Part shown: one piece after another, positions 1,471 through 27,408 of the stretch
Layout: the number at the start of each line of letters is the position of its first letter
Numbering within the stretch: the first letter of the stretch is position 1
From: a virus
IMG/VR virus record: IMGVR_UViG_3300044295_000097
Coordinates: 1 to 32,326 of that record
Length of the DNA stretch: 32,326 nucleotides
Direction: 5' to 3' (one strand)
Translations under genes and position numbers: made by a program
Notes under the pieces: generated by a model
What the model saw: the letters and a program-made list of their open reading frames with translations, nothing else
Told to the model about the DNA's origin: nothing
The model's database searches: none

Positions 1471-4400
1471 ATGATCGTCAATCTGCCAAAACTGGGAGCC
1501 GTTGAGTTCCCTGACAACCTTACATCTGAACAGTACGACAGTTTGGTTGGGAGACTGGCAGAAAAATACGACTTCTCAATGCCCAAACCACCAGCCAGTT
1601 TGGGCACAATAGCCAAACGTGGCTTCATGCGAAGTGCGGGTGAACTTGGGATTGCCGCTACCGACATCATCCCTGCAATGATCAGCACGGGGTTAGGTGG
1701 TGACAAAGAATACGCTGAACGCCAAATGCAAGAGGCGGCACAGGCACGTCAGGAATTGGAGCAAAAGTATCCCACTCGATTCCGCTCGTACAAGGATATT
1801 AGCAGCCCTTTTGAGGCTTTGGAATACGGGGCTGAAACAATAGGTGAATTGGCTCCCAGCGCATTGGCCTCTATAGTCCCAGGCGGTGCAGGTAGTCGAG
1901 TTCTTGGTACTGCCGCCAGAAGAGCCGCTCTTGCTGAAGCCACAGCCGCTGGCGCACCTACCCGTGCTGCTTTGGCTGGAGTGGAGCAAGCCGCTGAAGC
2001 TGGTGCCCGTAAAGGTATGTATGGCGGTGTCTTTCTTGGTTCGTATGCCCAAAACGCTCCTGAAATTTTTGAAGGTATTTACCGAGAGACAGGCAATTTT
2101 GAGTCTGGCATTGCTGCCCTGACTGGTGGCTTGAGTGCGTCATTGGATTCGGTATTGCCAGCTAAAGTCCTGAACACGTTGGGTAAATACGGCAAACTTA
2201 AAGTTGTTGAGGAGATGGCAAAGAGGTCTGGTGCCGCTCCCGTGGCTTGGAAAACAATTGGCAGGGAGGCCGCTGAGACTGCCGCATCCGAAGGTTTGAC
2301 CGAATCCGTTCAAGAAGCCATTGGCGTGTACGCCCAAAAGTTGGCTGGCAGTGCCAAAGATTTGTTGTCTCCTGAGAACATTGAGCAGTACAAAGAGGCA
2401 TTTATTAAAGGAGCGGTCGGCGGTGGCCTGTTTGGTCTACCCGGTGGTGTGGTTCAAGCCCGTCGTGAAAGGGCCGACTTCCGAAATACTCAAGAGGCGC
2501 AGAAGGCTCTGGCTGAACAAGAGGCGGCACAACAAGGTATCACTACCCCCTTGCAGGAGCGAATTGACGCTCTGGTGTCTGGTCGTATGGACACCCCGAT
2601 AACGGAAGAGGAGCTGTCTACCGCTTTCAAATATACAAAAGATGAGTTGGCTGAATTACAAGCCCGTATGGATGCCGCACGTCCAGGTTCAGAAGCCTAT
2701 GCTGAGTTAGATGCCGCCATCAAACAGAAACAAGAAGCCCTGACCGCTCTCGATACAAAGAAGGCGCAGACAAGTGCGTTTGCCACGGCTGTCCCCGATG
2801 AACAGGGTCTCTTCCAAGCGCAACAGCGCATTGACGTTGAAACTCTCAAGTCTGTTGGTATTAACCCTAAGTCTAAGGCCGCTCAAACCCTAATAGGGGC
2901 CGATCTAACTACACCTGAAGGTGTTAGTACGTTCATCAAAACAATTGAGGCTCCCGGCTTCATGGGTAAAGTTGATGAAAAAGCGTATGACCAGTTAGTA
3001 GGACAGTTAAATCCTGAGTATGTGACTGCGGCTCGTACCGAATTGAAAGGAGCGCCCAGTGTTGCAAAACCTATCGAACAACCAAGTGGAGCAGGCGTTG
3101 GCGTGGCTGGCAAGTCCGATACAGGAGCCGCCCCCGCAGGAGTTGGAGCACCTAAGTCAGATGGAGTGGTTCGTCCTGCAACGGATGTTGGACAGGCTAC
3201 AACAGGAACAGAAGGAAAGCCCCGTTCAGTAGATAAGGCATCGGTAGACGCCGCATGGGGGATGCTCCAACGTGCGGAAAAAGCCCAGCGTGAAGCTGAT
3301 ATGGTCGATCAGTTTTCCAAACAGGATAACCTGTTTGAGGTTGCCGTTTCGTTGTATCAGCAGGGTTTTACCGACCCCAAGGAGTTGGCTGCTGAACTGG
3401 GTATTGGTTACAACCGTGCCGCCAAACTGCTGGAGATGACCAAACAGTTTGACCTTGAGGTCGAACCACAGGATGTTTCACGTGGAACAACTGAAGGCGA
3501 AACAATCGAGGACACTGAAATACCTGAGAATGCGTATGTCGATAACGAATCAGACAACGCTAAAGTTGCCAGCCTTGACACGCCTAACTTGCCTCCTATG
3601 AACAAAGACGCCCGTGCTTATTTCGGGCGTGCTGATACCGAAACTGCTCTACGAAACATCGCCAACGACTTGGTGTTTCAACCCACCGCCTACCGTAACT
3701 CCAAGATGAAGGCGTTTGAAAAGTCGCCTCAAGGCCCGGAACCTGCGTTCCGAACCGAAAGAGAAGCGGCTATGTTTGTTGGGCAAGGTGGAGTGCATGC
3801 CAAAAACGCTGAGAAATGGGCACGAGAGAACCTGACACCTGAGAATGTGGCGTATCTGGACAAGTGGATTGCCCAGTACAAGAAAGAGGACGAACGCTCC
3901 AAACAATACCGCAGTAAGTTGGAGAAAAGGCAGAAGGCCAAAGCCGCTCTTAAACAAGACATAGAGGCGGCACCAGTTGAACTCACCACGGCACAGGAGC
4001 TGGAGAACTACGGCATCAAACAGGAAGCCCGTACCCGTTCGGAAGCCAAAAAGATGGCACGTAAAGCCATCAGTGAAATGCAGACCGTTGATGAGGATTT
4101 CGCACCCATCCTTGACTCTGATCTGAATGCGCTTTTGGCGTCACCAGAGATTGCCGCACTGTCCACATCGCTCCACCCTGCGGTTGAGGCGGCGCTTAAA
4201 CAGGGCAATCTGGTTCGGGCCTTGGGTCTATTTGCTGACTCTATAAACAACGCGCGGTTAACACGTATAGCTGAAACACTGGCGAGCGTGTTGGGGAATG
4301 TAAAGGTTGTGTATGGCGCCGAGAAGTCCATGTACGACCCCAAGACCAACACAATCTACCTGCCAAACAACGCTACGGACTACGACCTGATTCACGAAGC

Positions 4401-7400
4401 AAGCCATGCAGGTCTGTCTCACATCATCGCCAACCCGTCCCACCCCATCACCCGTCAACTGAACAAGGTGTTTGAGCAGGTCAAGTCGGACATCGACGGT
4501 GCGTATGGGGCAAGGAACCTACAAGAGTTTGTGGCAGAGGTGTGGAGCAACGATGACTTCCGCACCCAGTTGAAAGAAAAGCGATCTGAAGTACCCACTT
4601 TGTCGTTGTGGGACAAGATCATCCGCACCATTCGTCGGTTCTTCCGCATGCCTGACCGCATGGAGCCCACCTTAGATCAGGTTGATCGCCTACTGGATGC
4701 CATCGTTGGCCCCCCGCCAGATAGCCGCAGTGGGGATACGTTGTATGCCCAAGCCATTCATGGACGCAATATTCCTCAGAAAATTTTTGAGGGGTTGGAT
4801 AAAGTGTTGCAGTCTGGCACAAAAATGACCCCGCAACAGGCCGCACGATTCATTGGTGCGATGGAGAATACGGGGATGAGTCTGCGCCGTGGGTTGCAGA
4901 AATTCTTGAACCTGTCGGCTGTTGGGCAGGTTGGCGCTGAGGTGTTCCGTCGTGGGGTGTTCAACCGTGAGTTGGCACGCTTGCTCAAAGAAGGTGTGGT
5001 CGAGGCCGACGCCCGTAAACAAGCCAAAGCGATTGCCGATCAAGCCGCCAAGAATCCCATTGACTTTGCCGATACGGTCAACGAGATGGCTGGTTATCGT
5101 GAGAACCTGATTGAGAAACTGATGCCGCTCGACAAGCGGTTGCAGGAGTTCAGTACCAAACCTGAGTTTGCCAAATGGACAAAGATGGTTCACGAACACA
5201 CCCGTGAAGACATTGACCCAGAGGCACCAGCCAGCAAATATGCCAACTCTGAGAAAGCCAAACTGCACGCTCAGTTCCAAAAAGAGTTCAACTCTTTGAC
5301 GCCAGAAGGCAAAAAACTGTATCATGATTTGTTCGGTGCGTATAAGAAACTGTTTGAAGAGTTGCAGTCATCGCTCTATGCCAATTTGGTAGATGTGCAT
5401 AAAGAAGGTACGCCAGAACATAAGGCGGCTCTAGGTGCATATGAGAAGGTGATTGGCATGATCATCGCCAAGGGTATTGACCACTATGCACCGTTGTATC
5501 GTCAGGGTTCATTCTGGCTGGAATATAAAAACAAAGATGGCGAACTTGTACGTGAGTTGTACAACAGTCAGGTTGAACGCCAACTTGCCCGTAAAGCGAA
5601 AGAAGCCGAAGGCAACAGTGACTTTGATGAATATGTGAAGGTTGAGGGGGCGATTGCCCGTCGTGCCCCCACTGGCACTATTGCCGCACAAATCATCAAG
5701 ATTATGAAAGAGGGTGGTGCTGACGATAGTGCGGTGGAAAAATTCTTGGAGTTGATCATCAGTGCCATGCCTGAGACCAGCGTTCTCAAATCGTTCAACG
5801 CTCGTAAAGGCACTTTGGGTTACGAAGAAAACGCCGCTACCGCTTTTCGCAATGTCACCAACAATTTGGTGGGGCAGCTAGCCCGCATGCGCTACTCTGA
5901 CAAACTACAACGTCTTTTGGATGGCATGGCGCAGAAGGCCAATCAGCTGCGTGGTGAAGACAACATTCGTGCAAAAGAGGTTGTGCAAGAGTTAGATGCC
6001 CGTTATTCGTTTGCCATGAAGCCAACTATTGAGGCATGGGCACGATGGGCAAGTGGCGGTGCGTTCTACTTTAACTTGGCTGGCAACGTATCTTCAGCAC
6101 TGGTCAACGTGTTGCAGACACCGATGGTTGTATTTCCGCAGCTGGGCGGTACGTATGGCTTTACCGATGCTGGTAAGGCTTTGATGGCGGCAACTAAATT
6201 GTATAGTTCGTCGCAATTGAAACGGGTTGTCACCGACATTAACGGGGAAAAAACAGAACAGAACGCCATGTTGTCCATTGAGAACCTTGTCAATTCTGGC
6301 AAGGCTCCTCAGTATGCTCCTCTGGTGCAACGGCTCAAAGACCTTGGCTTCTTGCAAACATCTACCGCCCGTGACGCTTTGGAAGCGTCAAACATGTCAG
6401 GTGCTGACCCGACCAAGTTTAAAACCATGGCTGAAAGAACAGCCCTATATTCATCGTTCCTCTTCCATCATGCCGAACGCATGAACCGTGAGGTCACGGC
6501 AATTGCCGCTTTTGACTTGGAGATGAATCGACTGAAAGGTAAAGGCATCACTGGTGAAGCGGCGCAAGCCCAAGCCATCGACAAAGCCATCCGTATGGTT
6601 GAGTTCACGCACGGCGCTGGTCATGCGGAATCTGCCCCCAGTATCGGGCATAGTAGTTTGGGTAAGGTATTGACGGTGTTCAAGCGGTTCGCCTTCACCA
6701 TGTACTACATGTTGTTCGACACAATCCGTAGATCGTTGCCTGTGCCTCCTGATGCCACACCTGAACAACGAGAATTGGCTATGGCGGCTCGTCGCCAACT
6801 GTTGGGAATCTATGGCATGTCGGGGTTGTTTGCTGGCGTTAAGGGTATGCCCTTATACTGGGTTGCTCAAATGGCTTATGACGCTTTCGCTGATGACGAC
6901 GAGGACAAGTTCGACGAGGTGATGCGTAAGTATCTTGGTGAGTTCCTGTTCAAAGGCCCCGTCAACTACGTCACCAACCTTGGCATCGCTGACCGTGTGG
7001 GCTGGACTGACCTGATCTATCGTGACCAAAAGGGTGACAAGGCTGATGCCTCTGTGCTATCTCAGTTCCTTGAGAACATATTGGGTGCGCCTTATGCCGT
7101 GGTAAACAACGTGTTCCGTGGTCAGGAATTGATTGGGGAGGGGCAGTTCTATCGTGGTGTGGAGACGATGCTCCCTGTGTCGCTCAAGAACCCCATGAAA
7201 GCATTCCGTTACGCCACCGAAGACGCACGTACCCTGCGGGGTGATATGGTCGGTGAGGTGAATGGCTACAACGCCGCCATGCAAGTGCTGGGCTTTGCTC
7301 CTGCTGACCTGCTCACTAAATATGAGGAAAACTCATACATTAAGAGCAAAGAGGACGCCACCGTTGGTCAGGCAAAGAAACTGCTCAAACAATATTACAT

Positions 7401-7617
7401 CGCACTCAACATGGGCGACCAAGACCGTATGGATGCGCTTGAGGACAAACTCTTTGCGCTGGGCGACCGTCACCCTGACTTGAAGATCAGCCAAGATACT
7501 ATCAATAAATCTGTGAAGGCACGAGACGCCATCACCAGAGATATGTATCAGGGTATTGAGATAAACAAGAAGATGCGTAATGAGTTGATTGACTCTGCCG
7601 AAGAAATCTTCAAATAA
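1471..7617 (+). CDS. Giant polyvalent protein with HExxH metallopeptidase motif (putative ejected internal virion protein)
   Basis: The protein has 2048 residues. The N-terminus (MIVNLPKLGAVEFPDNLT) is the short strand-rich opening typical of large phage polyvalent or internal virion proteins. Residues about 330-1100 are largely charged and helical. A zincin motif HEASH lies at residues 975-979, followed by Glu candidates for the third zinc ligand at 1019 and 1023 (LQEFVAEVW). The C-terminal third (about 1500-2040) has amphipathic and hydrophobic helices, including a stretch near 1790-1815, resembling the C-terminal domains of large polyvalent proteins. Such proteins are packaged in virions and delivered with the DNA; that role here is inference. 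The peptidase could mature virion proteins or attack host targets after entry. The stop codon overlaps the terminator of the opposing operon. Confidence 0.85.
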   Translation: MIVNLPKLGAVEFPDNLTSEQYDSLVGRLAEKYDFSMPKPPASLGTIAKRGFMRSAGELGIAATDIIPAMISTGLGGDKEYAERQMQEAAQARQELEQKYPTRFRSYKDISSPFEALEYGAETIGELAPSALASIVPGGAGSRVLGTAARRAALAEATAAGAPTRAALAGVEQAAEAGARKGMYGGVFLGSYAQNAPEIFEGIYRETGNFESGIAALTGGLSASLDSVLPAKVLNTLGKYGKLKVVEEMAKRSGAAPVAWKTIGREAAETAASEGLTESVQEAIGVYAQKLAGSAKDLLSPENIEQYKEAFIKGAVGGGLFGLPGGVVQARRERADFRNTQEAQKALAEQEAAQQGITTPLQERIDALVSGRMDTPITEEELSTAFKYTKDELAELQARMDAARPGSEAYAELDAAIKQKQEALTALDTKKAQTSAFATAVPDEQGLFQAQQRIDVETLKSVGINPKSKAAQTLIGADLTTPEGVSTFIKTIEAPGFMGKVDEKAYDQLVGQLNPEYVTAARTELKGAPSVAKPIEQPSGAGVGVAGKSDTGAAPAGVGAPKSDGVVRPATDVGQATTGTEGKPRSVDKASVDAAWGMLQRAEKAQREADMVDQFSKQDNLFEVAVSLYQQGFTDPKELAAELGIGYNRAAKLLEMTKQFDLEVEPQDVSRGTTEGETIEDTEIPENAYVDNESDNAKVASLDTPNLPPMNKDARAYFGRADTETALRNIANDLVFQPTAYRNSKMKAFEKSPQGPEPAFRTEREAAMFVGQGGVHAKNAEKWARENLTPENVAYLDKWIAQYKKEDERSKQYRSKLEKRQKAKAALKQDIEAAPVELTTAQELENYGIKQEARTRSEAKKMARKAISEMQTVDEDFAPILDSDLNALLASPEIAALSTSLHPAVEAALKQGNLVRALGLFADSINNARLTRIAETLASVLGNVKVVYGAEKSMYDPKTNTIYLPNNATDYDLIHEASHAGLSHIIANPSHPITRQLNKVFEQVKSDIDGAYGARNLQEFVAEVWSNDDFRTQLKEKRSEVPTLSLWDKIIRTIRRFFRMPDRMEPTLDQVDRLLDAIVGPPPDSRSGDTLYAQAIHGRNIPQKIFEGLDKVLQSGTKMTPQQAARFIGAMENTGMSLRRGLQKFLNLSAVGQVGAEVFRRGVFNRELARLLKEGVVEADARKQAKAIADQAAKNPIDFADTVNEMAGYRENLIEKLMPLDKRLQEFSTKPEFAKWTKMVHEHTREDIDPEAPASKYANSEKAKLHAQFQKEFNSLTPEGKKLYHDLFGAYKKLFEELQSSLYANLVDVHKEGTPEHKAALGAYEKVIGMIIAKGIDHYAPLYRQGSFWLEYKNKDGELVRELYNSQVERQLARKAKEAEGNSDFDEYVKVEGAIARRAPTGTIAAQIIKIMKEGGADDSAVEKFLELIISAMPETSVLKSFNARKGTLGYEENAATAFRNVTNNLVGQLARMRYSDKLQRLLDGMAQKANQLRGEDNIRAKEVVQELDARYSFAMKPTIEAWARWASGGAFYFNLAGNVSSALVNVLQTPMVVFPQLGGTYGFTDAGKALMAATKLYSSSQLKRVVTDINGEKTEQNAMLSIENLVNSGKAPQYAPLVQRLKDLGFLQTSTARDALEASNMSGADPTKFKTMAERTALYSSFLFHHAERMNREVTAIAAFDLEMNRLKGKGITGEAAQAQAIDKAIRMVEFTHGAGHAESAPSIGHSSLGKVLTVFKRFAFTMYYMLFDTIRRSLPVPPDATPEQRELAMAARRQLLGIYGMSGLFAGVKGMPLYWVAQMAYDAFADDDEDKFDEVMRKYLGEFLFKGPVNYVTNLGIADRVGWTDLIYRDQKGDKADASVLSQFLENILGAPYAVVNNVFRGQELIGEGQFYRGVETMLPVSLKNPMKAFRYATEDARTLRGDMVGEVNGYNAAMQVLGFAPADLLTKYEENSYIKSKEDATVGQAKKLLKQYYIALNMGDQDRMDALEDKLFALGDRHPDLKISQDTINKSVKARDAITRDMYQGIEINKKMRNELIDSAEEIFK

Positions 7618-18875: not shown

Positions 18876-19169
18876 TCATACTCCTTTAAGTTGCTCTAAC
18901 AATTCCTGAACGGTGTTCAGGTTCTCCTCATTGACAACGATGGCTACGCCACCGCTATCCCTGATTTTCTTCATGTGCCGCTCCTGTAAGTCTGTGGGTT
19001 GGTTCTTACCCGCCTTACATTCAATGGCAAAAAATTTACCGTTGTAACAACCGATAATGTCTGGTACACCTGATGAACCATATGCACCCATCATGGCGTA
19101 GAAGTGATACACATTAGCGTCTTTCAGTATGGCTGTTACCTTGCGCTTGACCTTGGCTTCTGGTGTCAT
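18876..19169 (-). CDS. VRR-NUC domain nuclease
   Basis: This 97-residue protein is a stand-alone VRR-NUC (PD-(D/E)XK superfamily) nuclease. The motif GSSGVPDIIGCYNGKFFAIE gives Asp 37, followed by Glu 50-x-Lys 52 (IECKAGK), with a downstream QxxH-type helix (LQERHMKKI). The length is typical of phage members, which cut structured DNA such as flaps or junctions. Together with the RuvC-like, Cas4-like and SNF2 proteins it makes a recombination set. The stop overlaps the next gene region. Confidence 0.92.
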   Translation of the reverse strand: MTPEAKVKRKVTAILKDANVYHFYAMMGAYGSSGVPDIIGCYNGKFFAIECKAGKNQPTDLQERHMKKIRDSGGVAIVVNEENLNTVQELLEQLKGV

Positions 19170-19446: not shown

Positions 19447-19656
19447 TCATTGTCTCGGTTTGATTTTTGCTTCCATGGACTTGATGAATTCCTCATCCTC
19501 GGGGTCAACGGGCGTGGAGTTTTGCTCCAGTGTTCCGTCTGCCGCCATCTGTCGGATTTGGGCAATCATCTCTTGGAGTTCCTCCTGTGTGCCGTCAAAG
19601 TTGTCAAAGCAACCTGGGGCGAACTCAATCTTGATTTCTTTCTTTTGCTCAGTCAT
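19447..19656 (-). CDS. Small conserved phage protein (FAPGCFDNFDGTQEEL)
   Basis: This acidic 69-residue protein has the segment KIEFAPGCFDNFDGTQEELQ, a motif I recognise from many phage hypothetical proteins, and a predicted second helix (EMIAQIRQMA). The function is unknown. Its ATG and SD (AAGGAG) are encoded by the KLKEKNT tail of the preceding gene, so its expression is built into that repeat. Confidence 0.8.
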   Translation of the reverse strand: MTEQKKEIKIEFAPGCFDNFDGTQEELQEMIAQIRQMAADGTLEQNSTPVDPEDEEFIKSMEAKIKPRQ

Positions 19657-20054
19657 GTGTTCTTCTCCTTGAGTTTGGCTTCAATCGCACGGATAAAGTG
19701 AGTAAAGTTGACACCATCGCCCCAACGAGCATCAATGAACATTTGCACTTCCTCATCCGTCAGCCCCTGCCATTCACGCTTGGGTGGGGATGTATAGAAA
19801 GGCCCTTGTATCCAAGTTGCCTGTCCTTTGCACCAAATGTCATTCTCTGCGTGGTCAGGATGTTCTTGCACAGACTTGCAGGTGTTGTACCAAAAAATGC
19901 CATCGCCAAGTTGAGGGACAGGCTCTGGCTCTGGTTGTTCCAATGCTTGTTTGATAGCGGTGATGGCGGGTGCAATAATTTCAGGTCTGCGGTTACCTGT
20001 GCTTGCATATTCCAACGCCTCCAACGCCAGCCTCAATGCTTCGTCTTTGTTCAT
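19653..20054 (-). CDS. Two-module accessory protein with KLKEKNT tail
   Basis: The protein has 133 residues. The N-terminal module ALRLALEALEYASTGNRR...EIIAPAITAIKQALEQ is shared with the protein at 21256-21624. The C-terminal module KREWQGLTDEEVQMF...FTHFIRAIEAKLKEKNT is shared with several neighbours. The middle (GDGIFWYNTCKSVQEHP) is variable. The last seven codons contain the SD and start codon of the next gene. GAGG is 8 nt from its own ATG. It may be a modular small regulator or host-interacting protein; the function is unknown. Confidence 0.8.
   Translation of the reverse strand: MNKDEALRLALEALEYASTGNRRPEIIAPAITAIKQALEQPEPEPVPQLGDGIFWYNTCKSVQEHPDHAENDIWCKGQATWIQGPFYTSPPKREWQGLTDEEVQMFIDARWGDGVNFTHFIRAIEAKLKEKNT
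19654..19685 (-). repeat. KLKEKNT/SD junction repeat, copy 1
   Basis: This 32-bp sequence is identical to copy 2. On the minus strand it encodes the tail of the 133-residue protein (EAKLKEKNT) and, within the same bases, AAGGAG, an 8-nt spacer and the ATG of the next gene (ATGA overlap). Confidence 0.9.
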
Positions 20055-20500
20055 AATCCATACCTCGCAATCAGTGCGGCATCAGCCAATGCTTGGCCTT
20101 CACCTTTTTTGTCCAGCACCCTCCATTCAGGCCACATCTGTATGGCCAGCGACCGGGCGGCATCTTTGTCTTTGTTCAACAACCCCACATATTTCTTCCA
20201 GGCCTGAGGGGTTACTAGTCTGACTGGTATCTCAAGCGCCCCCAGCACCCCACGCACCGTCCCAGTGGCATGGCCAAACGTGAACATCGATGTCACGCCC
20301 TGACCAGGCATCGCCCCCACGTTTTCAATGAAGGCAACATCAATCTTGGTGTTGCGCCAAATAGCGGCCAGGGAACTGGCATTGATGCGTTTACTGCTCC
20401 CCTCGACCACGGTCGGCATCACTCCCCATTCAATCGGTACACCATCTTCCAGCACGACAAACGCACCAGACAAACCAGGGTCAATTCCCAAAATGTTCAT
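20051..20500 (-). CDS. RuvC-like Holliday junction resolvase
   Basis: This 149-residue protein has an RNase H-like fold of RuvC type: MNILGIDPGLSGA supplies catalytic Asp 7, AFIENVGAMPGQGVTSMF supplies Glu 59, and the C-terminal LADAALIARYGL supplies Asp 140. The length matches phage RuvC-type enzymes. It would resolve branched DNA before packaging. AGGGG lies about 6 nt before the ATG. It sits between accessory genes rather than with the main replication block. Confidence 0.92.
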   Translation of the reverse strand: MNILGIDPGLSGAFVVLEDGVPIEWGVMPTVVEGSSKRINASSLAAIWRNTKIDVAFIENVGAMPGQGVTSMFTFGHATGTVRGVLGALEIPVRLVTPQAWKKYVGLLNKDKDAARSLAIQMWPEWRVLDKKGEGQALADAALIARYGL

Positions 20501-20715
20501 GCTTGTCCCCTTGCTTGGATTTCATCGGCAATGATTTCCGAATAGTTTCGCTCAAGCCCTTCAGCGTATTTATTAGCCACTTTTGCGCAAGCCTCACGCT
20601 CATGGGCGGCAACAAGGCTAGCAAAGCGTTCAAGGTACGGATCAAACCAATTCAAATCCCATGCTCCGGGAATCTCGGCCTCTCGCGCCATGCGAATGAT
20701 GTCATCTTTGTTCAT
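20497..20715 (-). CDS. Small conserved phage protein (RFASLVAAHEREACAKV)
   Basis: This 72-residue protein has the pattern MNKDDIIRMAREAEIPG...LERFASLVAAHEREACAKVA...AEIQARGQA-like end, frequent among small phage and prophage proteins. It is helical and charged, with no catalytic motif. Its start is supplied by the junction repeat of the gene upstream, and its TGA overlaps the RuvC ATG. Confidence 0.8.
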   Translation of the reverse strand: MNKDDIIRMAREAEIPGAWDLNWFDPYLERFASLVAAHEREACAKVANKYAEGLERNYSEIIADEIQARGQA

Positions 20716-20954
20716 GTGTTCTTCTCCTTGAGTTTGGCTTCAATGGCTTCGTAAACGCTTCTTTTTGTGTAAACATTTCCATTCATTTCACTTTCCCAAC
20801 AAGCGGTAATTTCCTCATCAGTCAATCTATGCCATTCACGCCGCACAAAACCGCCTTCAAATGCAAGAGCAACCAACTTTAATATCTCTGGCGACATGGC
20901 AACTTGGGGGATGTTTGCCAAACGCCATGTTTCAAATGGGGTGTCTTCGCTCAT
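20712..20954 (-). CDS. Accessory protein with WxxLTDEE module and KLKEKNT tail
   Basis: The protein has 80 residues. A unique N-terminus (MSEDTPFETWRLANIPQVAM) leads to the shared module REWHRLTDEEITACWESEMN and the tail EAIEAKLKEKNT. It is a shorter paralogue of the proteins at 19653 and 21256. It starts from a junction repeat and ends in one. The function is unknown. Confidence 0.8.
   Translation of the reverse strand: MSEDTPFETWRLANIPQVAMSPEILKLVALAFEGGFVRREWHRLTDEEITACWESEMNGNVYTKRSVYEAIEAKLKEKNT
20713..20744 (-). repeat. KLKEKNT/SD junction repeat, copy 2
   Basis: Identical over 32 bp to copy 1. It encodes the tail of the 80-residue protein and the SD plus ATG of the 72-residue gene. 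Confidence 0.9.
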
Positions 20955-21259
20955 GTGTTTTTCTCCTTGAGTTTGGCAAGCCCGAAACGGCCAATCATTC
21001 TGTATTTAATATCACCGCCAAATTCTTTGTTTTGAAAACATGCTGGCGCTTTGCGGACAAAAAGAAAGTGGCTTTGCGCATCCGTTGCTAATTCGCTGAA
21101 CTGAAAAGCAAAGTTAATGATGGCCTCCTCTCTTGTGTTCCAGTAGCCATCTGGGTCGTCTGGGTTGGCCCCAATAAGCACATGCTTGGTGAATTCAAAT
21201 GGGTAGTCCTCTGCTGGCTTTTCGTTACCAAAGCCAAACAACGTTGGGTGCTCACTCAT
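20951..21259 (-). CDS. Accessory protein of 102 residues with grafted KLKEKNT tail
   Basis: The start at 21259 is set by the upstream junction repeat (longer in-frame starts would run into that repeat). The body (MSEHPTLFGFGNEKPAEDYP ... WNTREEAIINFAFQFSELAT) is unrelated to its neighbours, yet it ends FGLAKLKEKNT. It therefore carries the tail without the WxGLTDEE module, which suggests that the tail sequence was acquired as a DNA unit. The function is unknown. Confidence 0.78.
   Translation of the reverse strand: MSEHPTLFGFGNEKPAEDYPFEFTKHVLIGANPDDPDGYWNTREEAIINFAFQFSELATDAQSHFLFVRKAPACFQNKEFGGDIKYRMIGRFGLAKLKEKNT
20952..20977 (-). repeat. KLKEKNT/SD junction repeat, copy 3
   Basis: A 26-bp copy with one mismatch to copy 1. 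It ends the 102-residue gene and starts the 80-residue gene. Confidence 0.88.
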
Positions 21260-21624
21260 GTGTTCTTCTCCTTGAGTTTGGCTTCGATGGCTCTGATGCA
21301 CTCAACTCGATGAGGTAGCGCGCCCATGTTGTGATCTATCAAAGTTTGTTCAACTTCGTTTTTTGTCAGCCCAACCCATTCACGCTTGGGTGGGTGGGTG
21401 TAGAGGGGTGTACCCGTTTGTCCTCCATAAAACTGCAAGCCCCATTTGTCTACAGTTTTGCCATCAGGCATCGCCCACATCACAGGCTTTTCCTTCTCTG
21501 CTTCTGCTATGGCTTGGCGTAGGGCGGTGATGGCTGGATGAATTAACTCATCTTCGTCTTGGCTTGTTTCGGTATGGATGTATTCCAACGCCTCCAGCGC
21601 CTGTTTCATTTCTTCAATGCTCAT
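21256..21624 (-). CDS. Two-module accessory protein with KLKEKNT tail, paralogue
   Basis: This 122-residue protein has an N-terminus (MKQALEALEYIHTETS...ELIHPAITALRQAI) that parallels the protein at 19653, and a C-terminus (KREWVGLTKNEVEQTLIDHN ... CIRAIEAKLKEKNT) that repeats the second module. The central WAMPDGKTVDKWGLQFYGG segment differs. It starts at a junction repeat and ends in one. The function is unknown; duplication and divergence within the window are clear. Confidence 0.8.
   Translation of the reverse strand: MSIEEMKQALEALEYIHTETSQDEDELIHPAITALRQAIAEAEKEKPVMWAMPDGKTVDKWGLQFYGGQTGTPLYTHPPKREWVGLTKNEVEQTLIDHNMGALPHRVECIRAIEAKLKEKNT
21257..21288 (-). repeat. KLKEKNT/SD junction repeat, copy 4
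   Basis: Matches copy 1 at 31 of 32 bases. It encodes the tail of the 122-residue protein and the SD plus ATG of the 102-residue gene. Confidence 0.9.
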
Positions 21625-21818
21625 GTGTTCTTCTCCTTCAATATTTGCTCTGCCTTACGCAAAATTAAATCCCATGCAGGTTCATCAATACAGGTTGCCA
21701 TGTCTTCAGTTGTCAGACCAACCCAAGGCAGTTCAACCTCATGCCCTGTTAGTTTGTAGGCTTCAGCCCTCCACCTTGCGGCTCGGTTCTTGTGGTATTC
21801 GCAGTCAGGGCAGGTCAT
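21621..21818 (-). CDS. Small protein with CPDC motif and LKEKNT tail
   Basis: The protein has 65 residues. The N-terminus MTCPDCEYHKNRAARWRAEA has one CxxC pair and a basic helix. The C-terminus LPWVGLTTEDMATCIDEPAW ... AEQILKEKNT is a divergent form of the shared module. Its own start lies in a degenerate junction (GTTCCTC instead of the usual SD complement). The function is unknown. Confidence 0.75.
   Translation of the reverse strand: MTCPDCEYHKNRAARWRAEAYKLTGHEVELPWVGLTTEDMATCIDEPAWDLILRKAEQILKEKNT
21622..21638 (-). repeat. KLKEKNT/SD junction repeat, copy 5 (short)
   Basis: Seventeen bases identical to copy 1 (the SD, spacer and ATG part), after which the sequence diverges. The conserved part is exactly the translation-initiation signal. 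Confidence 0.85.
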
Positions 21819-22006
21819 GTGTTCCTCGCTCTTATCAATGCGTCTGCCATCTCGTATGCAAACTGTGCCACCTTTTCAACTTGCACATCATCTGAACCCA
21901 TGTTGGTAGGAAATGTCGCTAACCACCCCTGCATCGCTTGTGCGGCAAAGTAGTCACGCAAACTCATACCACCGATACCAAAAGCTGACCCACCTGTTTT
22001 GCTCAT
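21815..22006 (-). CDS. Small conserved phage protein (GMSLRDYFAAQAMQ)
   Basis: The protein has 63 residues from the ATG at 22006, chosen because AGGAG lies 7 nt upstream and overlaps the preceding stop. GGMSLRDYFAAQAMQGWL followed by AQFAYEMADALIRARNT is a pattern found in many small phage and prophage proteins. It ends RNT, a degenerate version of the KNT tail, and overlaps the next start by ATGA. Confidence 0.8.
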   Translation of the reverse strand: MSKTGGSAFGIGGMSLRDYFAAQAMQGWLATFPTNMGSDDVQVEKVAQFAYEMADALIRARNT

Positions 22007-25038: not shown

Positions 25039-26208
25039 TCAATCCACATGAATGGTTTGACCGACAGGCGCATTGCTACTCGAACCATTGACGATGCACC
25101 ACAGCACAGGCTGTTGCCATGTGCCCCAATCACTTACATATCCATCAGTCAGCATGACAACGCACTCGGGTTTGATGCCACGCTCTTTGATGTAAATGGG
25201 AACGCATGATGCGTCTGTCCCCCCGCCACCTGCGGGTTTGGTGCTACTCACCAGTTTGTCCAGACTGTCTCGGGCATACACTTCGTGTGCCGCTACTGAG
25301 GTGTCCCAATACAGTAAGTCCACCAACTCGGGAGACACATTCTCACAGATTGCCTTGACCTCAGAGAGAAACGCATTCAGCTCACGCCCACCAATCGAAC
25401 CCGATGTGTCCACGCCAATCACGATACGCCCCATGCTCTCGGACACAGTAGAGGGCATATACATATCGTGTTGTAGCCAACGACGATTGACTTTCTGCCA
25501 TGTAGAAACATCCTTACCATCTGCAAGGCTAGACAGATACTCCCGTAACTTATCTTGCCAACGCACCTTGGGTTCAAGCAACTCACCCAACTCACGGGTT
25601 ATGCGCCCACCCATCTTGCCAGCCAACATCTGACCTTGACGCAGGGCTTGGTCAATCTCTTTCTGAAGTTGTTCCTTCTCTTGGTCAGTCAGTTGTTCGC
25701 CACTCTCCCAGTCGTGTTCGTCAAGCGGTTCACCCTCATCGCCACCATCCCCACCCTCATCCATGAGAATGTCAAACACTTCCTGTGAGTCCATGCCACG
25801 AAAACGCTCGTCAATCAAACCCTGTTTGGGCAGAGTCACGAACCCATCCGATGCCCTATCAATATCTTTGATGATGAGATTGATTACATAGTCGCAAGCC
25901 ATGTTTGCAACCTTGGGGTTCTGCTCATACAAGTGACGCCACAGGAAAGTATGTTGGAACGCCTTGTGCAGATTCTCATGCAAGATAAGACCACGCAAGT
26001 CGCTATCAGACAGTCCCTCAATGAACGCCTTGCCATACTTACAGTCGATGCCATTGGTGCAAGCAGTAGGGACATTCTCATCGACAAAATATTTGCCGAC
26101 CATGATGACACCCGCATACTCCATAGTATCTTGGTGCGCCATGAGTTCCACATGAGCACGCTCAATTTTCTGCAATGCAGTCATCTGATTAAGTTGTGTA
26201 ACAAACAT
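25039..26208 (-). CDS. DUF2201-type metallopeptidase/VWA protein
   Basis: The protein has 389 residues from the ATG at 26208 (AGAGGA SD); a longer frame would run through the palindrome upstream. The N-terminal domain has a zinc-peptidase motif HENLH (77-81) followed by ANMACDYVIN (101-110), the signature of the DUF2201 N-terminal domain. An acidic linker (about 150-185) leads to a VWA-like C-terminal domain with a MIDAS set: DTSGS (267-271), Thr 331 (GGGGTD) and Asp 355 (MLTDGY). Such proteins partner with MoxR AAA+ ATPases, the gene directly upstream. Likely role: an ATPase-driven chaperone or protease complex that remodels a target protein. Confidence 0.93.
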   Translation of the reverse strand: MFVTQLNQMTALQKIERAHVELMAHQDTMEYAGVIMVGKYFVDENVPTACTNGIDCKYGKAFIEGLSDSDLRGLILHENLHKAFQHTFLWRHLYEQNPKVANMACDYVINLIIKDIDRASDGFVTLPKQGLIDERFRGMDSQEVFDILMDEGGDGGDEGEPLDEHDWESGEQLTDQEKEQLQKEIDQALRQGQMLAGKMGGRITRELGELLEPKVRWQDKLREYLSSLADGKDVSTWQKVNRRWLQHDMYMPSTVSESMGRIVIGVDTSGSIGGRELNAFLSEVKAICENVSPELVDLLYWDTSVAAHEVYARDSLDKLVSSTKPAGGGGTDASCVPIYIKERGIKPECVVMLTDGYVSDWGTWQQPVLWCIVNGSSSNAPVGQTIHVD

Positions 26209-26241
26209 GATTTCCTCTCTTTCTCTGGTTAACGAATGGGG

Positions 26242-26258
26242 GTTCATACTGTATGAAA
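26242..26258. promoter_or_regulatory. 17-bp palindrome, copy 2, before the VWA gene
   Basis: Matches 16 of 17 bases (first base G), with central T. It lies 34 bp upstream of the VWA ATG, in the 64-bp gap after the AAA+ gene. It is flanked by five Gs (26238-26242) and five Cs (26259-26263) that would extend the inverted repeat with one mismatch or bulge. Confidence 0.85.
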
Positions 26259-26272
26259 CCCCCGCCAAAAAA

Positions 26273-27352
26273 TCAACGACGGGCAAACATATAGTTGTTG
26301 TCTGCCGCCCACTTCGCAAACTTCATATTGGTCGCCGCCACTTCACGGTTGGGGCAACGCTCTTGCATAACGCTACGGGCAAACAAGCCCTGCGCTTCTT
26401 TGGACATACGGGGTAAGAAGTCCATCCATGAACCGATGTTGTCCTTACGGATACGCTGAACCGCTTTGGCAACCAACATACACGATGCCGCACCATTGTT
26501 TGGCACAGGCACAGTTGTTGGCGATTTGATAATGTCATCCCAATCGGCGAGCTGTGCGTCCATGTCCACCATCGTCAGGATGTTGAGCATTGCCTTGTCA
26601 CCGACTGTGCCTTTCAACGCATGAGCCAAAACATCTTTACCCAAGATAGAGCAACGGTCAACGATGTGACCCGCTTTCTCCAATGAACGGGGCGTGACAA
26701 ACGACAGGCGAACATCACGGGGGTCATACACATAGGTGTTTTGTGTTGGCGATTCGTAGTCCTCAAACGATGCCATCATGTCGGGATACTCACGCACAGT
26801 AGCAATGACTGTGTGATTGACACCCTTACTGATTGCATAGGTCATCCATTCCTCTGCCGTAGGTTTAGCAACACGCACCTGAGTCACACGATTTCTGGCG
26901 TGGGGCGGAACATTGTCACCAATACCCTCCACAGCCAAATTTGTTGTGGCAAACACAATACCCTGCAAGTCATACACACCCAACGAACGCTCTTGCATCA
27001 GGCGCAGACAGGCATTCATCACGCCACCCTTTGCCTTGCCCAACTCATCGAGCATCATCACCACCTTGCGGTCTTTGAAGTGCAAACCGAATTCCTCATT
27101 CGGAACAAAACGACACACCTCGTTGCCATCAATGTCTTTGATTTTCGGAACCATGAAGTCGCCAACATCTTTGGTTGTAATGTCGACATAGCAGAAGTAG
27201 TGGTCTTTGAATTCAGGCTTTTCACGCAACATCTTTAGGATGGATGATTTGCCAATGCCCATTTCGCCTTGCGCTAGTATGGTTTGAACATCACCGACTG
27301 CGGCGATGAGGTCAGCGGTCTGTTGCAGAGAGATTGATTTGTAAAGTGACAT
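26273..27352 (-). CDS. MoxR-like AAA+ ATPase
   Basis: The protein has 359 residues from the ATG at 27352 (AAAGGA SD, 7-nt spacer), two codons after another ATG that sits too close to the SD. Walker A is GEMGIGKSS (29-37), Walker B is VVMMLDE (97-103), sensor 1 is ATTN (135-138) and HARNRV (151-156) carries a probable Arg finger. MoxR ATPases act as hexameric chaperones with VWA partners; here the VWA/DUF2201 protein is the next gene. The 95-bp upstream leader holds a palindrome copy and a motif shared with the gene before it. Confidence 0.92.
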   Translation of the reverse strand: MSLYKSISLQQTADLIAAVGDVQTILAQGEMGIGKSSILKMLREKPEFKDHYFCYVDITTKDVGDFMVPKIKDIDGNEVCRFVPNEEFGLHFKDRKVVMMLDELGKAKGGVMNACLRLMQERSLGVYDLQGIVFATTNLAVEGIGDNVPPHARNRVTQVRVAKPTAEEWMTYAISKGVNHTVIATVREYPDMMASFEDYESPTQNTYVYDPRDVRLSFVTPRSLEKAGHIVDRCSILGKDVLAHALKGTVGDKAMLNILTMVDMDAQLADWDDIIKSPTTVPVPNNGAASCMLVAKAVQRIRKDNIGSWMDFLPRMSKEAQGLFARSVMQERCPNREVAATNMKFAKWAADNNYMFARR

Positions 27353-27408
27353 TTTCATTTCCTTTCAAAGGGTTGAACAAACTAACACACAAACACAAAA
27401 TGGGGAAG

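Follow-up and report, generated by a model that had tools for sequence, protein, structure and literature searches.

A repeated gene junction that may couple translation and act as a recombination hinge between small phage genes

An array of small genes and its repeated junction

The array described here lies in the IMG/VR virus record IMGVR_UViG_3300044295_000097, of which positions 1 to 32,326 were analysed (32,326 nucleotides (nt), hereafter the window). Between positions 19447 and 22006 the minus strand carries nine consecutive small genes, each joined to the next by an ATGA overlap. At five of these joints the sense strand reads AAGGAG-AAGAACAC-ATGA and the upstream gene ends in LKEKNT-stop; the ATGA is the 4 nt common to both genes, and the Shine-Dalgarno (SD) sequence AAGGAG stands 8 nt before the ATG. 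This AAGGAG/start junction, named hinge B (also B1), is probably a unit of translation coupling and at the same time a site at which small genes recombine, a proposal that rests on sequence comparison. Several of the small proteins carry in their C-terminal part a segment W-x-GLTDEE...IEAKLKEKN, termed the module. Its W-x-GLTDEE site is called hinge A, and a second type of joint is called type 2 or B2. The genes of the array and the copies of its junction are the following:

19653..20054, minus strand: module protein of 133 amino acids, paralogue of 21256-21624 (46% identity)
20051..20500, minus strand: RuvC-like Holliday junction resolvase inside the array (phrog_1770, E=1.2e-35)
20497..20715, minus strand: protein of 72 amino acids, MNKDDIIRMAREA...QARGQA
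20712..20954, minus strand: module protein of 80 amino acids
20951..21259, minus strand: protein of 102 amino acids from the ATG at 21259, tail without module
21256..21624, minus strand: module protein of 122 amino acids
21621..21818, minus strand: module protein of 65 amino acids
21815..22006, minus strand: protein of 63 amino acids, LRDYFAA family (phrog_2201, E=1.4e-17)
19653..19684, minus strand: hinge B copy 1, end of gene 19653-20054 (IEAKLKEKNT-stop), with the SD AAGGAG and the ATGA start of gene 19447-19656
20712..20744, minus strand: hinge B copy 2, end of gene 20712-20954 and start of gene 20497-20715
20951..20974, minus strand: hinge B copy 3, AAA variant, start of gene 20712-20954 and tail of a protein that lacks the WxGLT module
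21256..21287, minus strand: hinge B copy 4, end of gene 21256-21624 and start of gene 20951-21259
21621..21641, minus strand: hinge B copy 5, TTGAAGGAGAAGAACACATGA, encoding ...QILKEKNT and start of gene 21256-21624
21815..21829, minus strand: sixth, partial junction GCGAGGAACACATGA (...RARNT-stop), start of gene 21621-21818, reduced to the start signal and related to the type-2 junction

The sequence CTCAAGGAGAARAACACATGA is found at 19653-19673, 20712-20732, 20951-20971 (in its AAA variant) and 21256-21276; copies 1 and 2 have about 32 nt in common, and copy 5 departs from the others only 5' of AAGGAG. The hinge pattern matches five times in the window and 0.0 times in 300 first-order Markov versions of it. 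A preliminary description of this DNA had reported five joints with near-identical bases, each combining LKEKNT-stop with AAGGAG, an 8-nt spacer and the next ATG, as well as a protein (20951-21259) bearing the tail but not the WxGLT module, and all of this was confirmed. Its statement that copy 5 keeps only the initiation signal has to be corrected, since copy 5 (21621) still encodes LKEKNT and the reduced joint is the sixth one, at 21815-21829.

The module and most of the small proteins gave no family match in Pfam or PHROGs. A peptide-pattern search found no further relatives of the 20951-21259 protein, and its single homologue, in one of the collected loci (L013), turned up otherwise. Two distinct Holliday-junction resolvase-like genes lie in or beside the array, the RuvC-like gene at 20051-20500 and an Hjc-like gene at 18876-19169.

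The layout of hinge B is that of translational coupling, with an SD inside the upstream gene, a start/stop overlap and a near-constant spacing. On the mRNA, a ribosome terminating at the end of one gene could start the next protein from the AAGGAG in that end and the start 7-8 nt beyond it. From what is established for overlapping genes, we infer that translation of the downstream gene depends on that of the upstream one.

At least 120 IMG/VR contigs contain the exact 21-mer of hinge B. In 257 gigabases of bacterial and archaeal genomes, a somewhat relaxed pattern matched 7 stretches. Two of these, in betaproteobacterial metagenome-assembled genomes, resemble the phage arrays. The remaining five belong to ordinary pairs of bacterial genes without a phage-like array, which shows that the joint can arise independently, if rarely. 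In the bacterial pairs at L214 5663, L215 4746 and L217 (strand-coordinate 4464) a regulator-like protein ending in LKEKN is joined to a protein containing DPKLDLVLEREIDVPRELVW, by a junction apparently of independent origin. Among 50,697 phage records, convincing matches were confined to uncultured freshwater phages (Dishui Lake, Manatee Spring), besides one weak partial match in an Arthrobacter phage, and a host search in 399 genomes of one order gave one match. The collected loci contain the pattern 374 times against 0.33 expected, a descriptive figure since they were picked for the pattern or the module.

Exchange of genes at the junction

The preliminary description had further proposed that small genes are swapped, added or deleted at these junctions by homologous recombination, and had suggested checking whether unrelated genes lie between the copies in different genomes. 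Such genes were indeed found, the 358 joints in 223 loci preceding 210 downstream families; 99 of the upstream genes have no module by the pattern used, some of them because the module is degenerate. When joints were compared between contigs, 59 pairs shared their upstream DNA (≥80%) and had unrelated downstream DNA, and 24 showed the reverse. Against these 83 switched pairs stand only 6 with both sides the same, so that the relatives do not keep the same genes in the same order. At the switched joints, identity stays near 0.9 as far as the joint and has dropped to about 0.25, the level of chance, by 6 nt past the ATG. The window's module that ends at 19653 recurs in L027 at 97% identity, followed there by a different gene, and a different downstream gene is also found after the homologue of the 20951-21259 protein in L013.

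Whole genes are gained or lost as well. The related loci L266 and L318 (88-97% over several blocks) differ by one extra gene (MNPTKTGLY...), which in L266 lies between two hinge copies; the single hinge of L318 corresponds to the left copy of L266 up to GAAGCCAAACT and to the right copy from the next base, placing the crossover within GAAGCCAAACT/AAGGAG. Comparison of L163 with L354, L362 and L365 shows whole-gene gain or loss of this kind at a type-2 joint, and L058 and L074 contain common units in different order. Related pairs sharing 1 kb or more, each counted in both directions, were then scored for alignment breaks within 30 nt of a site; such breaks accompany 31% of the hinge B copies, as against 14% for ordinary ATGA overlaps and 4% for sites placed at random. 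As in a linker-type element, the same sequence stands at joints between unrelated genes and the exchange points lie inside it, in exact shared runs of at most 35 nt. To judge from the switches, the gain and loss of whole genes and the crossovers inside the hinge, genes are exchanged at hinge B.

From the positions of these crossovers we infer that phage or host recombinases exchange the genes through homology at the hinge. The swapping, addition and deletion of genes put forward earlier are thus supported by switches and by gain and loss, and the homologous route by crossover positions only. Phages have recombinases of the Red/Rad52 type, which can act on sequences that have diverged (PMC2327257, PMC3945230). 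The window encodes the RuvC-like resolvase of the array, the Hjc-like resolvase and a PD-(D/E)XK nuclease, which are at most compatible with homologous exchange; the scan of the window genes turned up no annealing protein. On the DNA, the approximately 15-35 nt of shared sequence would allow small genes of co-infecting or related phages to be joined, swapped, added or deleted with the start signal kept.

Alternatively, genes might be joined at random by illegitimate recombination, only the joins with an SD and a start surviving selection, and the hinge would then be carried along without being the crossover site. Gene-boundary mosaicism is common in phages (PMC3029335), and ordinary ATGA overlaps are also break-prone by comparison with random sites. 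However, both partners share the same hinge, including a spacer and codons that no SD needs, the crossovers map within it, breaks are about twice as frequent at hinge B1 as at ordinary overlaps, and gained genes lie between two hinge copies, one copy remaining where the gene is absent. We therefore give this alternative a low, though not negligible, probability.

Several points nevertheless weigh against hinge B as a coupling junction and recombination hinge. Similar maps could result if genes were joined illegitimately and selection then kept the joins with a working start. Hinges A and B2 break in 15% of cases each, which is no excess over the 14% of ordinary overlaps, and about 85% of the alignment-gap edges between contigs lie away from hinges, in an all-pairs test whose background is skewed by the choice of loci. 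The tail peptide is partly inherited with the module. Finally, the data are metagenome contigs and assemblies chosen for the hinge or the module, and some counts are inflated thereby.

Nucleotides and peptide at the junction

To compare nucleotides and peptide, tails were taken from loci gathered via the upstream W-x-GLTDEE, a sample blind to the tail itself. A start codon (ATG, GTG or TTG) stands at one of the positions -2 to +5 after the KEKN codons in 223 of 246 distinct tails (about 90%). The SD-to-start spacing of the junctions is 7-8 nt, a value partly set by the search pattern. The residues after KEKN vary (T, NG, HG, A, G, HD and others) because the upstream frame reads on into the first codons of the next gene. 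Codon choice in the tail differs sharply from that in the rest of the module, with AAG:AAA ratios of 193:18 versus 166:266 at K2 (p=2e-41) and GAG:GAA ratios of 152:50 versus 157:443 at E3 (p=5e-35); the ratios are 148:45 versus 166:266 at K4 and 190:56 versus 84:113 at N5, and p ranges from 1e-13 to 1e-41 over the four positions. Truly uncoupled tail copies are few, and the contrast between coupled and uncoupled tails is significant for K2 alone (p=0.001).

The peptide itself is variable. LKEKN is replaced by LRSKN in some tails with AGGAG kept; homologues of one protein end in KEKNT, KENT, KEPQ, KELT or KEGT, and members of another family in LKEKNT, VKEFDE or VKEMGA, in both cases mostly with AAGGAG or a close form. 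The tail is also present on unrelated proteins, and at 11 joints a stop lies no more than 8 codons upstream, leaving the same DNA with little or no upstream coding. At L091 (strand-coordinate 1051) and L101 (6982) an EAKLKEKNT-like sequence stands behind the end of a gene with its own stop, as a junction relic.

By their usage, the tail codons are frozen far beyond the needs of the peptide. Given these codons, the tail variants that keep AAGGAG and the joints with little upstream coding, the peptide alone does not account for the repeat. What was seen is the reverse of a conserved peptide on changing nucleotides. The same evidence favours the earlier suggestion that the tail is imposed by a portable coupling unit, except that the tail is also the normal end of the module, so that peptide history contributes.

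It is very unlikely that the tail is instead conserved as part of the protein, perhaps as a signal for binding or degradation, and that the SD in it is incidental. The module, whose conserved end is IEAKLKEKN, does show constraint at the protein level (216 synonymous versus 77 non-synonymous single-difference codons), and L132, L134 and L184, which have no nearby start, keep LKEKN with codons of the AAA/GAA/AAT type. Such a feature does not explain the frozen codons, the LRSKN substitutions, the exchange of tails among homologues, the copies with little or no upstream frame or the fixed distance to the start.

Apparent switches could also come from assembly chimeras at short repeats, as nearly all the data, the Dishui Lake phages included, are metagenome assemblies (PMC10611076). 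Frames and starts are however intact, and the frozen codons and variant tails are independent of any switched joint. The k-mers used late in assembly are usually longer than 35 nt, the upper limit of the exact shared runs at switched joints, and chimeras are a highly improbable source of the pattern. Local tandem duplication, by which neighbours would end alike as paralogues, fits genes 19653-20054 and 21256-21624 and may have made some copies, but it can be discarded as a full explanation, given the tail on unrelated families, the lack of a module in 20951-21259 and the same modules between otherwise unrelated contigs.

A second hinge, a second junction type and known systems

The interpretation of the preliminary description is thus supported at the level of sequence, with corrections that concern the history of the module, hinge A and a second junction type. 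Hinge A is a second frozen in-frame site (TGGGTWGGGCTGACGGATGAGGAR, W-x-GLTDEE) at the upstream end of the module, about 100 nt upstream of hinge B, with the consensus TGG GTW GGG CTG ACG GAT GAG GAR. Its GGG (84/98 versus 14% genome use) and ACG (81/98 versus 20%) are both minor codons in these phages. The copies of hinge A and the type-2 junction in the window are as follows:

19749..19772, minus strand: hinge A, TGGCAGGGGCTGACGGATGAGGAA (WQGLTDEE); from here the module up to copy 1 is the 97% identical stretch in L027
20811..20834, minus strand: hinge A, degenerate (WHRLTDEE)
21355..21378, minus strand: hinge A, partial (WVGLTKNE)
21702..21725, minus strand: hinge A, partial (WVGLTTED)
20497..20517, minus strand: type-2 junction AAGGGGACAAGCATGA (QARGQA-stop), end of gene 20497-20715 and start of the RuvC-like gene

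Sixty-four alignments are confined to the stretch bounded by the two hinges, with a median length of 124 nt and 92% identity, and most of them join contigs that have nothing else in common. This stretch is translated as part of the protein (differences of 107/73/276 by codon position). An exchange at hinge A would leave the reading frame intact and replace part of the protein, either the last 30-45 codons or the N-terminal part. A nested gene starting from an ATG in hinge A was rejected, its median length being only 15 codons. No mention of WVGLTDEE was found in the open-access literature searched, and an earlier description elsewhere is possible. The type-2 joint, a second and independent junction type that behaves in a similar way, has the tail IRARGNT (AIRARGNT in L337-L367) and the sequence GCAAGGGGAAACACATGA, with one exact 25-mer in 33 stretches, and is found on several unrelated proteins and before many downstream genes. 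It is conceivable, though doubtful, that hinges A and B work together as a two-site code dedicated to exchange and maintained by selection or by a phage nuclease or recombinase acting on them. By combination, such a code would produce chimeric small proteins and new gene orders in the operons of unrelated phages, much as an integron would if it had no integrase.

Lambdoid phages, HK620 among them, have a chain of interlinked genes in their nin region (ninR). Short conserved boundary sequences at gene joints of lambdoid phages have been proposed to serve module exchange by homologous recombination, as far as the available accounts go (PMC3029335, PMC2327257). Hinge B resembles these in its short joint sequence and in small genes tied by start/stop overlaps; it differs in being one sequence with more than 200 gene families in otherwise unrelated freshwater phages, in lying inside coding sequence where it sets the C-terminal peptide, and in being accompanied by a second in-frame hinge. 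The Start Associated Sequences (SAS/ESAS) of Cluster K mycobacteriophages are repeated 13-bp sequences with AGGAG a few bases before starts (PMC3203893). They too precede genes of different families and are conserved beyond the needs of an SD; however, SAS is GGGATAGGAGCCC, without a coding tail tied to a protein module, and the hinge consensus AAGGAGAAGAACACATG departs from it. Exchange at SAS is not described in the accessible text of that paper.

In T4-type phages, the early-promoter stem-loop elements (PeSLs; Arbiol 2010, Comeau 2014) are reported as mobile regulatory cassettes mediating modular shuffling (PMC4503421). Like hinge B they are repeated regulatory elements between small genes, but a PeSL consists of an early promoter and a stem-loop, whereas hinge B is a signal for translation and lies inside genes that overlap, with no intergenic space. 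Genes 67/68 of mycobacteriophage Island3 share their last 18 codons, also as DNA, a gene having been gained or lost by recombination between repeats of about 50 bp (PMC3029335); this is a single event in one phage pair, with no widespread shared sequence in the account given. On the available descriptions, hinge B is the same kind of thing as the lambdoid boundaries, PeSLs and SAS, its nearest precedents, and Island3 67/68. For none of these relatives does the accessible open-access literature report a single joint that ends a coding sequence, supplies the SD and start of the next gene and serves unrelated phages as a common point of exchange, nor does it report a second in-frame hinge paired with such a joint. 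Integron cassettes are likewise plug-in small genes between repeats, but crossovers at hinge B vary inside the repeat and also fall at hinge A; no integrase was found among the window genes scanned, in a contig that may be incomplete.

The origin of phage mosaics is a matter of dispute, since joints seldom show any shared sequence (PMC3029335, PMC2327257). Hinge B offers a large natural set in which the joint sequence is known, partners number in the hundreds and crossovers are placed to the nucleotide, so that homologous and illegitimate routes can be compared directly. The shared last residues of many small phage proteins are probably for the most part read-outs of the start signal of the next gene, which is relevant to annotation and to the counting of protein families.

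In the right part of the window a near-perfect palindrome, TTTCATACNGTATGAAA, occurs in eight copies 0.5-2 kb apart (24276, 26241, 27408, 28337, 30000, 30594, 31297 and 31841), a series that looks like one of operators. There, a VWA-like/metallopeptidase-like (DUF2201) gene (25039-26319) adjoins an ATPase gene (26273-27358, phrog_1297). On the plus strand, 1471-7617 is a single open frame of 2048 amino acids, likely encoding a virion-associated protein.

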